From Chitinophaga pinensis (lineage in GTDB: Bacteria > Bacteroidota > Bacteroidia > Chitinophagales > CAMDFR01): a stretch of 59,527 nt of DNA. The position numbers and the translations under genes were made by a program. Position 1 is the first letter of the stretch; the number at the start of each line of letters is the position of its first letter. Under the pieces are notes generated by a model. The model saw only the letters and a program-made list of their open reading frames with translations, had not been told where the DNA came from and ran no database searches. Shown here in pieces: positions 31,011 to 37,172 of the stretch. The stretch is taken from positions 1-59,527 of the forward strand of contig CAMART010000017.1 of the NCBI GenBank assembly GCA_945860705.1, written 5' to 3'.

Positions 31011-33233
31011 ATGAATTTAAATAAATATATACTCATCAGTTTTTTAATTTATTCAAACATTTTTATTTATGGTTTGAATGCACAAACTCTTTTGCCAGTA
31101 AAGACAATACCTGTATTCAATAATAATAAAGAACTAAAAAATCCTTGGGTAGGAGGGATGAATAATCCAGAATTTTCTTCTATAGATTTAAACAGAGATA
31201 GCCATAAAGATTTATTTGTCTTTGATAAAGACGGATACAAAGTGAATACCTATATCAATTTAGGAAATCCTGATTCGCCACATTTTGTTTATGCTCCACA
31301 GTATCAAAAGAATTTTCCAGAAATGACTAAATTAGTTTTGATTCGTGATTATAATAAAGATGGAGTAGATGATATATACACTAGTGCTATAGCAGGTTTG
31401 AAATTACTTAAAGGTACTTATTTAGGTGGAGAAAACTATTCATATGCTGTTATAGATTCGCCAGTCAGAGCCAATTTCTTTGGTACTGTTACAAATTTAT
31501 ATAATGCCAATGATGATATACCCGGAATCAGAGACATGGATAATGATGGAGATTTAGATATTTTGGTTAATTCAATATTTGGTCAGACATATGAGTTTTA
31601 TAGAAATTTAAGTGTAGATTCTACGGGCTTTCCAGATACATCGGTATACGAATATGCAAATAGTTGTTGGGGGCATTTTAATGAAGACCCTATAAGAAAT
31701 AATCTATTGTTAGGTGCCTGCAAAACTGATGGACCTGTAAGACATGAAGAGGAAGTAGGAGAATATAGACATTCAGGATGTACTATAGAATTGATAGACC
31801 AAGATGGCGATAATGATGTAGAGTTATTGCTCGGTGATCCAGGATTTAATACGATAGTATTTGGTAAAAATGGGGGTACACTTGCAGATGCTAATATCAC
31901 TAGTGAAGATACAATTTTCCCCGCATATAGTAATTCAATAAGACTCAATATATTTCCAGCTACTTTTTCACTTGATATGAATAATGATGGTGCAAATGAT
32001 ATCATAGCGGCACCCAATGTAGAAACTGCAGCAGAAAATGTAGGCAATGTTTGGTATTACAAAAATGTTGGCCCAACTTCCAATCAACAATTTATATTTC
32101 AGTCAGATTCATTTATGGTAGGAGACATGATAGATGTAGGTAAAAACTCAAAACCAGTTTTATTTGATTTTAACAATGATAATTTAGATGATATATTAGT
32201 TGCTAATGAAGGATATTTTAATAAAACAACTTTACAACAAGAATCTAAAATAGCTCTATATCAAAATATTGGAACTGCGGACTCTCCAACATATAAACTA
32301 ATTACTAAAGATTATCAAAGTTTGTATGCTTTAGGTCTTGTGGATATGAAAATATCTATGGGTGATATAGATGCAGATGGAGATGAAGATATGCTCATAG
32401 GTGACAATGATGGCAAATTAAATATGTTTTACAATCAACCTACTGGCGGTGTAGCCAATTTCACCAACTTAAGTCCAACAATAGGATTAGCAGGAATAGA
32501 TGTAGGACTCAGAGCCAATCCATGTTTATATGATATAGATGCTGATGGCGATTTAGATATCATCACTGGTAGAATAGATGGTAAAGTGAGTTATTATTGG
32601 AATTTTGGTACTGCATCAGTTTTTCAGTTTGATAAAGATTCTGTAAATTCTAATTTCGGACAAATAAATGTCTTAAATACTACTAGTCATCCAGATGGAA
32701 ACTCATCCGTATTTATCAAAAATTCGCTAATATATGTTGGTTCTCAGTATGGTGTTATACAAGTATACCAAATAAATATAGATAGTTTACGAACAGGTAC
32801 ATTTGTGAAAAATACTTCAAAATTTGCACAAATAAGAGATGGATATAATTCAAATATTTATATTAAGGATTTGAATCAAGATGGTTTACTAGAATATCTG
32901 CTTGGCAATAGTAGAGGAGGTGTGACGATGTATTCAGAAGCAGACTGGGATACTATTATTGCTCCAAAAGATGTGATCTATAATAGCATAGCTGATGTAG
33001 AAAAAATAAAACTATACATATATCCAAATCCAAGTAATGATTATATAACTATAACGACAGATTTGAAAAATGCCAATTTTGTAATATATAATATGGATGG
33101 ACAAGTATTAGCTAATGATGTTATTAAATCAACTAATACACAAATAGATATTAGAAACTATAGAGCAGGAATTTATTTTGTAAAAATATATACCGATAAG
33201 AAAACAATCACAAGTAAGTTGGTAGTGTATTAG
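31011..33233 (+). CDS. FG-GAP/VCBS repeat protein with T9SS type A signal
   Basis: 740 residues, predicted cell-surface or secreted. Signal peptide about 1-24. The body has nine or so calcium-binding FG-GAP/VCBS loops of the form D.(N/D).D...D: DLNRDSHKDLFVF, DYNKDGVDDIYTS, DMDNDGDLDILVN, DMNNDGANDIIAA, DFNNDNLDDILVA, DIDADGDEDMLIG, DIDADGDLDIITG and DLNQDGLLEYLLG. These form an integrin-like beta-propeller. The last 75 residues are the sorting domain (IYPNPSNDYITI, YNMDGQV, YRAGIYFVKIYTDKK). Its stop overlaps the stop of the convergent ffh gene by 4 bases. Ligand unknown. Confidence 0.93.
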   Translation: MNLNKYILISFLIYSNIFIYGLNAQTLLPVKTIPVFNNNKELKNPWVGGMNNPEFSSIDLNRDSHKDLFVFDKDGYKVNTYINLGNPDSPHFVYAPQYQKNFPEMTKLVLIRDYNKDGVDDIYTSAIAGLKLLKGTYLGGENYSYAVIDSPVRANFFGTVTNLYNANDDIPGIRDMDNDGDLDILVNSIFGQTYEFYRNLSVDSTGFPDTSVYEYANSCWGHFNEDPIRNNLLLGACKTDGPVRHEEEVGEYRHSGCTIELIDQDGDNDVELLLGDPGFNTIVFGKNGGTLADANITSEDTIFPAYSNSIRLNIFPATFSLDMNNDGANDIIAAPNVETAAENVGNVWYYKNVGPTSNQQFIFQSDSFMVGDMIDVGKNSKPVLFDFNNDNLDDILVANEGYFNKTTLQQESKIALYQNIGTADSPTYKLITKDYQSLYALGLVDMKISMGDIDADGDEDMLIGDNDGKLNMFYNQPTGGVANFTNLSPTIGLAGIDVGLRANPCLYDIDADGDLDIITGRIDGKVSYYWNFGTASVFQFDKDSVNSNFGQINVLNTTSHPDGNSSVFIKNSLIYVGSQYGVIQVYQINIDSLRTGTFVKNTSKFAQIRDGYNSNIYIKDLNQDGLLEYLLGNSRGGVTMYSEADWDTIIAPKDVIYNSIADVEKIKLYIYPNPSNDYITITTDLKNANFVIYNMDGQVLANDVIKSTNTQIDIRNYRAGIYFVKIYTDKKTITSKLVVY

Positions 33234-34552
33234 AAAGGCAATTTCATACCTCTACCTTTTCCTTGCATTCCTTGCATGGTTTTCATCATCTTTTTCATAT
33301 CTTCAAATTGTTTCAAGAAGTTATTTACATCTTGTATGCTATTACCGCTTCCATCAGCTATTCTTTTTCTTCTTATTCCGTTCATCAAATCAGGATTGCC
33401 TCTTTCTTTTGGCGTCATAGATAAAATAATAGCCTCTATTTTACTGAAAGATTTATCATCTATATCTATATCTTTTATAGCTTTGCCTACACCTGGTATC
33501 ATACCGAGTAGGTCTTTTACGTTACCCATTTTCTTGATTTGATTTAGTTGATTTAAGAAATCATTAAAATCAAATTGGTTTTTACTTATTTTCTTTTGAA
33601 GTTCAGCTGCTTTTTTCTCATCAAAATGTTCTTGAGCTTTTTCTACAAATGATACGATATCACCCATGCCCAATATTCTTTGCGACATTCTATCTGGGTG
33701 AAATACATCTAGCGTATCTACTTTCTCACCCATACTAACAAACTTGATAGGTTTGTTCACTGTATATTTGATAGTAAGCGCTGCACCACCTCGAGTATCA
33801 CCATCAAGTTTGGTCAATACTACACCATCAAAATCAAGTCTATCATTAAACGTTTTAGCGGTATTTACCGCATCTTGACCCGTCATAGAATCAACAACAA
33901 AGAGTGTTTCATTAGGATTTACAGCTTTTTTTACTTGCTCTATTTCTTTCATCATCTCCTCGTCAATTGCCAAACGACCTGCAGTATCTATGATAATGGT
34001 ATTATATCCGTGCACTTTGGCATGTTCTAGTGCATTTTTTGCTATTTGTACAGCGTTTTTATTTTCAATTTCGCTATATACAGGTATATCTATCGCTTTA
34101 CCAAGTACAATCAATTGGTCTATAGCGGCAGGTCTGTATATATCACAGGCTACCATCAAAGGATTCTTACCTTTTTTAGTTTTTAAAAAGTGAGCTAATT
34201 TATGAGTAAATGTAGTTTTACCAGAACCTTGAAGACCAGCAATAAGTATAATAGTAGGATTTCCTTTTAGATTAATTTCGCTTACCGAGCCACCCATCAG
34301 TTTTATCAACTCATCATTGACTATTTTTACCATTAATTGACTAGGCGAAACTGCTGTCAATACATTTTGACCCATCGCTTCTTCTTTTACTTTATCAGTA
34401 AATTCTTTAGCTATTTTATAGTTCACATCGGCATCAACAAGTGCTCTACGTATTTCTTTTATGGTAGCGGCTACATTTATTTCTGTTATTTTACCTTGAC
34501 CTTTTAGAGTCTTAAACGCACTATCTAACTTATCCTGTAAATTTTCAAACAT
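33230..34552 (-). CDS. ffh: Signal recognition particle protein Ffh
   Basis: GTPase that with SRP RNA targets ribosomes making membrane proteins to FtsY. 440 residues. NG domain: GLQGSGKTT (G1), DTAGR (G3), TKLDGDTRGGAAL (G4 region). The M domain follows, with NDFLNQLNQIKKMGNVKDLLGMIPG and the RNA-binding SMTPKERGNPDLM..IRRKRIADGSG. The C-terminus is methionine-rich (MKKMMKTMQGMQGKGRGMKLPF), the signal-sequence groove tail. Complete and canonical. -7 box at 34577-34584. Confidence 0.98.
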   Translation of the reverse strand: MFENLQDKLDSAFKTLKGQGKITEINVAATIKEIRRALVDADVNYKIAKEFTDKVKEEAMGQNVLTAVSPSQLMVKIVNDELIKLMGGSVSEINLKGNPTIILIAGLQGSGKTTFTHKLAHFLKTKKGKNPLMVACDIYRPAAIDQLIVLGKAIDIPVYSEIENKNAVQIAKNALEHAKVHGYNTIIIDTAGRLAIDEEMMKEIEQVKKAVNPNETLFVVDSMTGQDAVNTAKTFNDRLDFDGVVLTKLDGDTRGGAALTIKYTVNKPIKFVSMGEKVDTLDVFHPDRMSQRILGMGDIVSFVEKAQEHFDEKKAAELQKKISKNQFDFNDFLNQLNQIKKMGNVKDLLGMIPGVGKAIKDIDIDDKSFSKIEAIILSMTPKERGNPDLMNGIRRKRIADGSGNSIQDVNNFLKQFEDMKKMMKTMQGMQGKGRGMKLPF

Positions 34553-34584: not shown

Positions 34585-34637
34585 AAATAAATTATAGCTA
34601 ATAAACAGAATGTGTTAAAATAAATGATAAATAAAAT

Positions 34638-34667
34638 TTTGATTTCGTTTTAAAATAATTATAATTG
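34638..34667 (+). promoter_or_regulatory. Promoter of the lysine-repeat/START gene
   Basis: TTTG (34638-34641), 18 bases, TATAATTG (34660-34667): one mismatch to TAnnTTTG. Confidence 0.45.
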
Positions 34668-34705
34668 CAAGTTGATTCATTTTTCACTTAAAGATATTAT
34701 GTAAG

Positions 34706-36130
34706 TTGGCACAGAAAAAAGTACAAAAAGCTACCGCAAAAAAGCCAGTAGCTAAGAAAACAGTAGCAAAACCTGCATCTAAAAAGCCTGCATCAAAAGC
34801 AGTTGTAAATAAAAAACCTGCACCAAAAGCAGTAGCTAAAAAAGTAGCACCAAAAGCAGTAGCTAAAAAAGTAGCACCAAAAGCAGTGGTAAAAAAGCCT
34901 GCACCAAAAGTTGTTGCAAAAAAAGTAGCACCAAAGGCAGTTGCGAAAAAGCCTGCACCAAAAGTTGTTGCAAAAAAAGTAGCACCAAAAGCAGTGGCAA
35001 AAAAGCCTGTTGCAAAAAAAGTAGCACCAAAAGCAGTAGCTAAAAAACCTATTACAAAAAAAGTGGCACCGAAAGCGGTGGCTAAAAAACCTGTTGCAAA
35101 AAAAGTAGCACCAAAAGCTGTTGCTAAAAAACCTGTTGCAAAAAAAGTGGCACCAAAAGTAGTAGCTAAAAAACTAATACAAAAAGCTACAAATAAAAAA
35201 GATATAAAGGGAGTTTCGAAAAAATCTGTTACGCCTGTTTTAAAGAAAAATATAATTAAACCGGCACAAAAAGCTACAAAAAAAGAAGTTATTAAAAAAG
35301 ATACTAAAAAAGCGCTCCCGAAAGCTCAAGATAAAAAGAAGATATTAGATACTATAAAAGCTACTATTAAAAATAAAGTTGTAGAAACTAAAAAAACTAC
35401 ACCTATAAGTAAAATCAAGTCATCTGTAGAAGTTAAACCTGCAGTAGTGCCAGTAAAAAAAGCAATCAAAGAAGATACTTCATCAAAAGCAAAATTACAT
35501 ATAGAGCATGAAGATGTAAGTACTAAGCCAGTAATGATGCTAAGCAAAGATATTAAAGATATCAAAGGCACTATTGTGAGTGTTGTAAAACCAAAACTTA
35601 ACAGAGAAGAAAAGAAAGCGCTAAAAGAAAAACTTAGACTCAAAGCTCAAGCACAAAAGAAAGCATCTGGTGTAAAGATAAATTATGCTGAGGTAAGAAG
35701 ATTGGCTCGTATCAAAGCACAAGCTGAAATAGACGCATATTTAAAAGCAAATCCTAAAAGAAGATTATTGAAGTTGGAATTTGTGATACGTTCATCACCT
35801 ACTATACTTTACACATTTTTAAAATCATCTTCATGTTTAGCATTATGGTTCTGTGATGTATGCTCGGAAAATGGAAATGATTATTCGTTTACATGGAATG
35901 GAGATACACAATATGCTACCATGGTAGAAGATCATGAAGACGAAAGCGTAAAATACAAATGGGTAGGTGCACCAAAAGAAGAATTTATTGAGTTCTCTAT
36001 CAGTAAATCGGAGATATCATTTGATACGATACTTACTATCAAAGAATTTATAGATGCAGGTGATGAAGCTAGCCAAAGTGTACTTTGGGAGGAACAAGTA
36101 AAATCACTATTGAAACATATAGGAGGATAG
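34706..36130 (+). CDS. Histone H1-like lysine-repeat protein fused to a START-like domain
   Basis: 474 residues. Residues 1-165 are a low-complexity Lys/Ala/Pro tail with about a dozen APK(A/V)VAKK(P/V) units, like the C-terminal tails of histone H1 or bacterial Hc1/AlgP. Residues 165-350 stay very basic and become helical (EEKKALKEKLRLKAQAQKK, RRLARIKAQAEIDAYL). Residues 350-474 form a START-like/SRPBCC domain of the Bacteroidota type (LKLEFVIRSSPTILYTFL, SCLALWFCDVCSENGNDYSF, FIDAGDEASQSVLWEEQ). The start is TTG: no ATG exists before the repeats, and an ATG at 34699 is followed at once by TAA. The tail probably binds DNA or RNA; the START domain could bind a lipid or other ligand. Role unknown. 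Confidence 0.85.
   Translation: MAQKKVQKATAKKPVAKKTVAKPASKKPASKAVVNKKPAPKAVAKKVAPKAVAKKVAPKAVVKKPAPKVVAKKVAPKAVAKKPAPKVVAKKVAPKAVAKKPVAKKVAPKAVAKKPITKKVAPKAVAKKPVAKKVAPKAVAKKPVAKKVAPKVVAKKLIQKATNKKDIKGVSKKSVTPVLKKNIIKPAQKATKKEVIKKDTKKALPKAQDKKKILDTIKATIKNKVVETKKTTPISKIKSSVEVKPAVVPVKKAIKEDTSSKAKLHIEHEDVSTKPVMMLSKDIKDIKGTIVSVVKPKLNREEKKALKEKLRLKAQAQKKASGVKINYAEVRRLARIKAQAEIDAYLKANPKRRLLKLEFVIRSSPTILYTFLKSSSCLALWFCDVCSENGNDYSFTWNGDTQYATMVEDHEDESVKYKWVGAPKEEFIEFSISKSEISFDTILTIKEFIDAGDEASQSVLWEEQVKSLLKHIGG
34780..35190 (+). repeat. Coding tandem repeats of the APKAVAKK units
   Basis: About a dozen imperfect 24-42 base units, core GTAGCACCAAAAGCAGTAGC, encoding APKAVAKKP/V. Many units are identical at the DNA level as well as in protein, so copy number may change by slippage or recombination. 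Confidence 0.85.
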
Positions 36131-36154: not shown

Positions 36155-36201
36155 AAATAGATAATATATTCTGAGTGTAGAATTTGTTATCTATTTTTTT
36201 A
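36155..36201 (+). terminator. Possible terminator of the START gene, overlapping the methyltransferase 3' end
   Basis: Stem AAATAGATAA (36155-36164) with TTATCTATTT (36187-36196), then T-rich. The right arm covers the stop codon of the convergent methyltransferase gene. The stem is AT-rich, hence moderate confidence. Confidence 0.5.
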
Positions 36202-37162
36202 ATGCTTTCATAATATTTTTTGCTATTGCTTCTATTATTGGCACACTCACCGAATTGCCAGCTTGCTTGTATAAGTGAGCATTAGCCATGTTTTCAGGTA
36301 GTTGATATTGTTTTTCAAAAACAGGATAACCTTGCAGTGCAAAACATTCAATAGGTGTAAGTTTTCTGATGCCATTAGTTGTTAGTGTTAATGGTACATT
36401 GTGCCCACCTGTGCCCATATTTGCAGTAAGAGTGGGGCAAAGATTATTTTTATTTTCACGCACATATTGTCTTCTCCACTGATAGAGTGTATTGCTATTA
36501 GTTATAGTAGATTGTAGTTTATCATAAAATAATTTATCTTCCCTATAGTAAAATTTCTCCTCCATTTTTTTATTGATGATAAAATCTTTTACTTTTTTAG
36601 TGAGTGCTTGTTTTTCAGGAAATTCAAATTTGTAGTTTGTATTGTACTTACTATTTTTATCAAAACATACGATGAAAATTCGTTCTCTATTATGAGGTAT
36701 ATTTCCGTAATCTTTGGTATTTAATACTTTTGCATTAAAAGTATAATTTCTTTCTTCTATTGATTTTTGTATTACTTTAAACGTATTACCTTCATCATGA
36801 CCCACCAAATTTTTTACATTTTCTAGAAAAATAACTTTTGGTCTCATAATATCTATAAAATCTAAGATTTTATAAAAGTGATTGCCTCTATGGTCATCAA
36901 ATCCCTTTCTATAGCCAGCTACAGAGAATGGCTGACAAGGAAATCCAGCAGTGAGTAAATCTATTTTTTTAAGTTTTTTTATATCTAGGCTGAGCACATC
37001 TTCTTCTATCAACGTATGTTTGAAGTTTTCTCTATAAGTAATACAGGCATTTTTATCTATTTCGTTGGCCCACGACAAATCAAATCCTGCACGCTGAAAC
37101 CCAAGACATATACCACCAACTCCTGCATATAAACTTCCTACTGTAAACTTATTCTCTTTCAT
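36191..37162 (-). CDS. DNA (cytosine-5) methyltransferase, orphan
   Basis: Methylates C5 of cytosine in DNA. 323 residues from the ATG; a TTG three codons upstream is possible. Motif I GSLYAGVGGICLGF (9-22), motif IV AGFPCQPFSVAG with catalytic C76, motif VI ENV (114-116), motif VIII RERIFIVCF, motif X KQAGNSVSVPIIEAIAKNI. The target-recognition region between VIII and IX is short; its DNA site cannot be read. No restriction endonuclease is next to it, so it is either solitary or left over from an R-M pair. -7 box at 37173-37180, giving a leader of only about 5 bases. Confidence 0.93.
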   Translation of the reverse strand: MKENKFTVGSLYAGVGGICLGFQRAGFDLSWANEIDKNACITYRENFKHTLIEEDVLSLDIKKLKKIDLLTAGFPCQPFSVAGYRKGFDDHRGNHFYKILDFIDIMRPKVIFLENVKNLVGHDEGNTFKVIQKSIEERNYTFNAKVLNTKDYGNIPHNRERIFIVCFDKNSKYNTNYKFEFPEKQALTKKVKDFIINKKMEEKFYYREDKLFYDKLQSTITNSNTLYQWRRQYVRENKNNLCPTLTANMGTGGHNVPLTLTTNGIRKLTPIECFALQGYPVFEKQYQLPENMANAHLYKQAGNSVSVPIIEAIAKNIMKALKK

Positions 37163-37172
37163 ATTTAGCAAT

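Follow-up and report, generated by a model that had tools for sequence, protein, structure and literature searches.

Lysine-rich repeats resembling histone H1 are found on several unrelated bacterial proteins, and DNA binding has been described for those of TopA, HupB, Ku and PhaF (PMC7398561, PMC9239181, PMC5658603). The repeats of TopA, HupB and Ku are needed for DNA interaction or processivity (PMC7398561), the tail of PhaF is a non-specific DNA binder that anchors granules to the nucleoid (PMC5658603), and the H1-like protein AlgP has been found with polyphosphate granules (PMC9239181). Here, we analyse a gene of Chitinophaga pinensis in which a tail of this kind precedes a START-like domain; the window referred to throughout is the whole stretch of DNA that was analysed, 59,527 nucleotides long. 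START and SRPBCC folds commonly bind hydrophobic ligands, and an earlier note on this DNA had seen in the combination a ligand-controlled nucleoid or RNA binder that belonged to no described system. On the latter point the note is supported, as neither the fusion of the tail to this domain (START_2, PF19569) nor PF19569 itself is described in the literature searched, outside of which lie subscription papers and most preprints. The gene and its immediate surroundings are composed of the following features.

33230-34552, minus strand: ffh (SRP54), divergent neighbour and synteny anchor in the four genomes of the genus; named from its sequence, not by a Pfam run.
34636-34705, plus strand: conserved upstream sequence that differs little among the four genomes of the genus, presumed from this to be a promoter or leader.
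34706-36130, plus strand: whole gene, 474 aa, TTG start, stop at 36128-36130; from the list of open reading frames, with a start common to the four genomes of the genus.
34706-35215, plus strand: residues 1-170, H1-like K/A/V/P repeat region, 34% K, pI 11.5, net charge +57, by composition.
35216-35605, plus strand: residues 171-300, lysine-rich with less regular repeats, 27% K, net charge +23, by composition.
35606-35764, plus strand: residues 301-353, basic junction, 84% identical to G020 and conserved within the genus by comparison; helix-prone according to a low-confidence model.
35765-36124, plus strand: residues 354-473, START_2 domain PF19569, acidic, pI 4.4, by Pfam profile match; PDB relative 2LIO.

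The 474-residue frame bears out the earlier description of some 350 lysine-rich residues ahead of a START-like domain. Residues 1-345 contain 30% K, 17% A, 14% V and 8% P, giving a pI of 10.7 and a net charge of +87, and the START domain carries a net charge of -11. Lysine makes up a median of 7% and a maximum of 12% of the other long open reading frames in the window, so the lysine-rich tail is not a chance feature. The repeats are real, if slightly fewer than the dozen APKAVAKK units first counted: there are 11 copies of APK[AV]V[AV]KK at residues 39-156, 7 of which are exact APKAVAKK, and the DNA of this region forms imperfect arrays of 27, 42 and 54 bp. The START_2 profile matches residues 354-473 over its positions 6-125 of 126 (E 3e-22, 79.2 bits against a cut-off of 23.6), which confirms the domain and moves its beginning about 9 residues on from residue 345, where it had been placed. 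By sequence comparison 2LIO is a START_2 relative in the PDB (1e-34 with the family profile), which also holds weak Aha1/SRPBCC relatives, the Aha1 domain protein being weaker than 2LIO. The predicted structure, from an alignment of two sequences only (the window protein and L053), is a poor model with a pLDDT of 48.

The tail and the domain appear to belong to one gene. The tail-START architecture is present as an open frame (484, 485, 508 and 557 aa) in each of the four genomes sampled from the genus, and the TTGGCACA start is conserved in 4/4 behind closely similar upstream sequence. No in-frame ATG lies between residue 279 and the START domain in the window frame, and none lies within the last 60 codons before the domain in 24 of 44 tailed relatives; in-frame TTG codons at residues 333, 355 and 357 are possible internal starts on sequence alone. 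Given the uninterrupted frame, the TTG start shared by four genomes and the lack of an ATG from residue 279 onwards, we reject a reading as two separate genes, and the single chain that had been proposed is upheld in the window. A private oddity or misassembly is likewise rejected, as the architecture is shared by four genomes of the genus and by about 16 families. These observations support a single-chain fusion of an H1-like polycation and a START-like domain as the product of the window gene.

The window protein resembles the named H1-like families in composition only. HC2 (PF07382) scores 21.3 bits against a cut-off of 40 and hist_H1_lk_Burk (NF038053) 18.8 bits against 80, both below threshold and far enough from the curated cut-offs for membership to be rejected. 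Hc1 (PF07432) has no match in the window protein or elsewhere in the genome, and no phasin domain was matched by Pfam in the window protein. We also rejected the tail as a substitute for Hc1, since absence of the Hc1 gene is alike in tailed (23/31) and untailed (24/33) rows, with no association between tail and gene and with independent pairs that are uninformative.

START_2 was found in 337 of 396 Bacteroidia genomes and in 135 of 150 genomes of the order, nearly always as one copy and mostly in open frames of 126-150 residues (order and class searches). There is one copy in the window's genome, so the tailed protein is itself the orthologue rather than an additional paralogue. Within the order, lysine-rich extensions occur in 4/4 genomes of the window's genus, in f3 (g38, g57, g73), in f22 (g45) and in one f9 genome. 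Among the roughly 155 best-scoring class matches listed, 50 had open frames of at least 186 residues, and every one of the 30 that were read had a lysine-rich front end. The search for further lysine-tail/START fusions that the earlier note had recommended has thus found them in about 16 Bacteroidia families, and the tail is more widespread than the note supposed. Its picture of a domain that normally stands alone at about 125 residues fits most genomes but not the many families with lysine-rich N-terminal extensions, and of its caution that the fusion might prove widespread and already characterised, the first half is true of Bacteroidia and the second is not seen in the searchable literature.

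On a START tree of 105 rows, which were partly picked for long frames and so give biased frequencies, the tail requires 8 changes of state (bootstrap range 8-9), at least 5 of them being forced by well-supported branches, in counts that do not distinguish gain from loss. One large clade has the tail in 23/23 rows, many of these tails being longer than 200 residues. The window's genus lies on a long branch of this tree (1.28), and in place of TDF, a motif widely conserved in START_2, it has KEF (window 36039-36050), with REF in G034.

Across 44 tailed proteins from loci of 28-49% GC, the tail has a net charge per residue of +0.27 ± 0.05. As GC rises the lysine content of these tails drops slightly (rho -0.37) and the share of AAG among their lysine codons grows (rho 0.44). 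A steady charge combined with a codon shift from AAA to AAG points to selection at the protein level; it argues that tail charge is probably under selection, and led us to reject an AT-rich accident as the origin of the tail. In the comparison of G000 with G020 the START part is slow to change (dN 0.05, dS 0.94), and the tail is 54% identical after alignment against 94% identity; the aligned tail has a dN/dS of about 0.3 or less, with the alignment of repeats unsure. Such fast divergence is as expected of a repeat selected for its composition.

Further tails in the same genome were searched for with two DNA patterns, an incomplete search in which counts were not clearly above a reversed-pattern control, and for this reason only tails read from open reading frames are used here.

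L114:16-1611, plus strand: DNA topoisomerase I with a C-terminal AKK-type tail.
L136:367-495, plus strand: tail-only open reading frame of 42 codons on contig C19, with KKAAPKKAVAKK-type repeats throughout.
L137:679-1980, minus strand: HemD (uroporphyrinogen-III synthase) on contig C3 with a 178-residue lysine-rich N-terminus; relatives L148-L150.
L138:1305-1481, minus strand: Thx-like ribosomal protein of 58 residues with an AKK-type KKAPAKKATKKK end.

The Thx-like protein scores just under the Thx cut-off (28.1/29.7 bits), and the 42-residue product of the tail-only frame is possibly a stand-alone mini H1-like protein. The lysine-rich N-terminal tail of HemD is 160-200 residues long in 4/4 genomes of the genus and is present in shorter form in f3, f9, f17 and f20; no lysine-rich HemD was found in literature searches, whose reach stops short of subscription papers and most preprints. 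Two of the five tail carriers, TopA and the Thx-like protein, are associated with nucleic acid, and the tail-only frame is uncharacterised; we know of no nucleic-acid role for HemD, a tetrapyrrole enzyme, or for START_2. Since a tail of this kind is present on HemD, its occurrence on a protein is not in itself evidence of a DNA function.

The neighbours of START_2 belong largely to the envelope. Its commonest downstream neighbour is LptF/LptG, followed by glycosyltransferases, and in many Bacteroidia families START_2 lies directly upstream of LptF/LptG (e.g., L083, L086, L091, L096), often with an unannotated convergent gene between the two. This adjacency suggests that START_2 is an uncharacterised partner of envelope-lipid export, and synteny suggests an envelope-lipid role for the ancestral protein. 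In the large tailed clade START_2 is followed by PAP2 and then by PMT_2/glycosyltransferase genes, and in f81 its neighbours include PEMT-like and aminotransferase-I/II-like genes, the latter appearing by reading of its sequence to be of the alpha-oxoamine-synthase type. An LptF/G operon was rejected as the reason for the tail, since the linkage is found at tailed and untailed loci alike and is absent in the window's own genome, where LptF/LptG lie on other contigs than START_2. In f3, f21 and f22, ffh and an rpoD-like gene adjoin START (genes named from sequence, no Pfam run). We also observed a C-5 cytosine DNA methylase adjoining START in the window (36191-37171, minus strand), absent from this position in the closest relative G020 (L047), and, at L094, L095 and L096 in f81, an Hc1 gene between the upstream aminotransferase-I/II-like gene and an untailed START_2.

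The fusion is supported by observation, namely by its single-chain architecture, the identity of the domain, its recurrence, its conserved charge and the tail chemistry that it shares with other proteins. We give a probability of about one half to the reading that, by analogy with PhaF, TopA and HupB, the tail is a generic H1-like tether for polyanions (DNA/RNA) on a START_2 orthologue. The long N-terminal polycation would be disordered and would bind acidic polymer non-specifically, chiefly nucleic acid, either RNA/ribosomes or the DNA of the nucleoid, and would so raise the local concentration of the folded, acidic START domain at the polymer, in the way that the lysine repeats of those three proteins act. 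The domain itself would retain its ancestral and probably lipid-related job, with whatever ligand, lipid or other, it may take; ligand-regulated binding is no part of this mechanism and is not needed. Of the possible targets nucleic acid is the most likely, since this tail chemistry is common to TopA and the Thx-like protein in this genome and to proven DNA-binding tails elsewhere.

The tail could instead be held by other acidic surfaces. The envelope-lipid neighbours of START_2, i.e., LptF/LptG in many families, PAP2 with PMT_2/glycosyltransferase genes in the large tailed clade and PEMT-like and aminotransferase-like genes in f81, keep alive a rival in which the tail would bind to the cytoplasmic side of the inner membrane, through anionic phospholipid or the phosphate of lipid A, near the envelope-lipid machinery, and the hydrophobic ligands common to START/SRPBCC folds would suit such a place. 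We nevertheless consider a membrane tether unlikely, as the LptF/LptG linkage extends to untailed loci and is lost in this genome, and as known DNA-binding tails have this K/A/P repeat chemistry, which recurs on TopA and the Thx-like protein. It is also doubtful that the tail is a polycation with no target, added to cytosolic proteins for solubility, charge balance, polyphosphate or condensates, with any nucleic-acid binding incidental. The tail on HemD in the genus and in other families, a sequence that diverges fast while its charge persists and the association of AlgP with polyphosphate granules would all agree with this, but a charge near +0.27 per residue in 23/23 rows of one clade suggests a positive function.

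The ligand control proposed in the earlier note, in which lipid sensing by the START pocket would switch the tail on or off nucleic acid, perhaps through competition of the acidic domain for the tail, is not borne out and seems to us very improbable. Domain (pI 4.4) and tail (pI 10.7) are oppositely charged, which would permit intramolecular competition, but START domains of untailed relatives match those of tailed ones in acidity (median net charge -11 without and -9 with a tail), so the acidity of the domain did not evolve for the tail. No ligand is known, and the tail is a generic module found also on TopA, the Thx-like protein, HemD and a tail-only frame; START neighbours elsewhere are mostly envelope-lipid and not DNA genes, and the tail does not track Hc1. 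Least credible of all is a functionless low-complexity expansion of an AAA-rich repeat by in-frame slippage. The tandem DNA arrays of 27-54 bp and the rapid divergence within the genus are what it would produce, but the charge is kept from 28 to 49% GC with lysine codons moving to AAG, tails are retained in 4/4 genomes of the genus and 23/23 rows of one clade, and the tentatively aligned tail has a low dN/dS.

START_2 is an almost universal, single-copy and uncharacterised protein of Bacteroidia. Gain or loss of the tail on START_2 several times, together with its presence on HemD, suggests selection for holding both proteins at an acidic polymer, and if the target of the tail is the nucleoid, envelope-lipid biology would be tied to chromosome organisation in a major bacterial group. 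A broader proposal, speculative and in our view improbable, is that Bacteroidia repeatedly add H1-like modules to ligand-binding proteins such as START_2 and HemD, giving rise to an undescribed class of metabolic proteins tethered to the nucleoid or to RNA, in which the lipid bound by START_2 would report the state of the envelope to the chromosome.

Among the known systems closest to the fusion, the stand-alone START_2 proteins of Bacteroidia, with 2LIO as a solved relative, have the same domain in single copy and are orthologous by tree and shared neighbours; most of them lack a tail and are 126-140 aa long, whereas the window protein is tailed. AlgP, the Burkholderia-type H1-like proteins and chlamydial Hc2 (PF07382, NF038053) are alike in tail composition and repeat style, with sub-threshold matches, but lack the START domain that the window protein has. 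In actinobacterial TopA, HupB and Ku, H1-like lysine repeats are likewise added to an unrelated domain, as in the TopA of this genome, although those domains bind DNA themselves and START_2 is not known to. PhaF, the Pseudomonas phasin with an AAKP/KPAA H1-like tail, likewise joins a domain with a hydrophobic partner to highly basic K/A/P repeats, but its domain is a helical phasin with a C-terminal tail, in contrast to the START_2 fold and N-terminal tail of the window protein. In tail-START_2, two parts of known kinds are joined in a new and apparently undescribed way, and the result does not amount to a novel kind of system.
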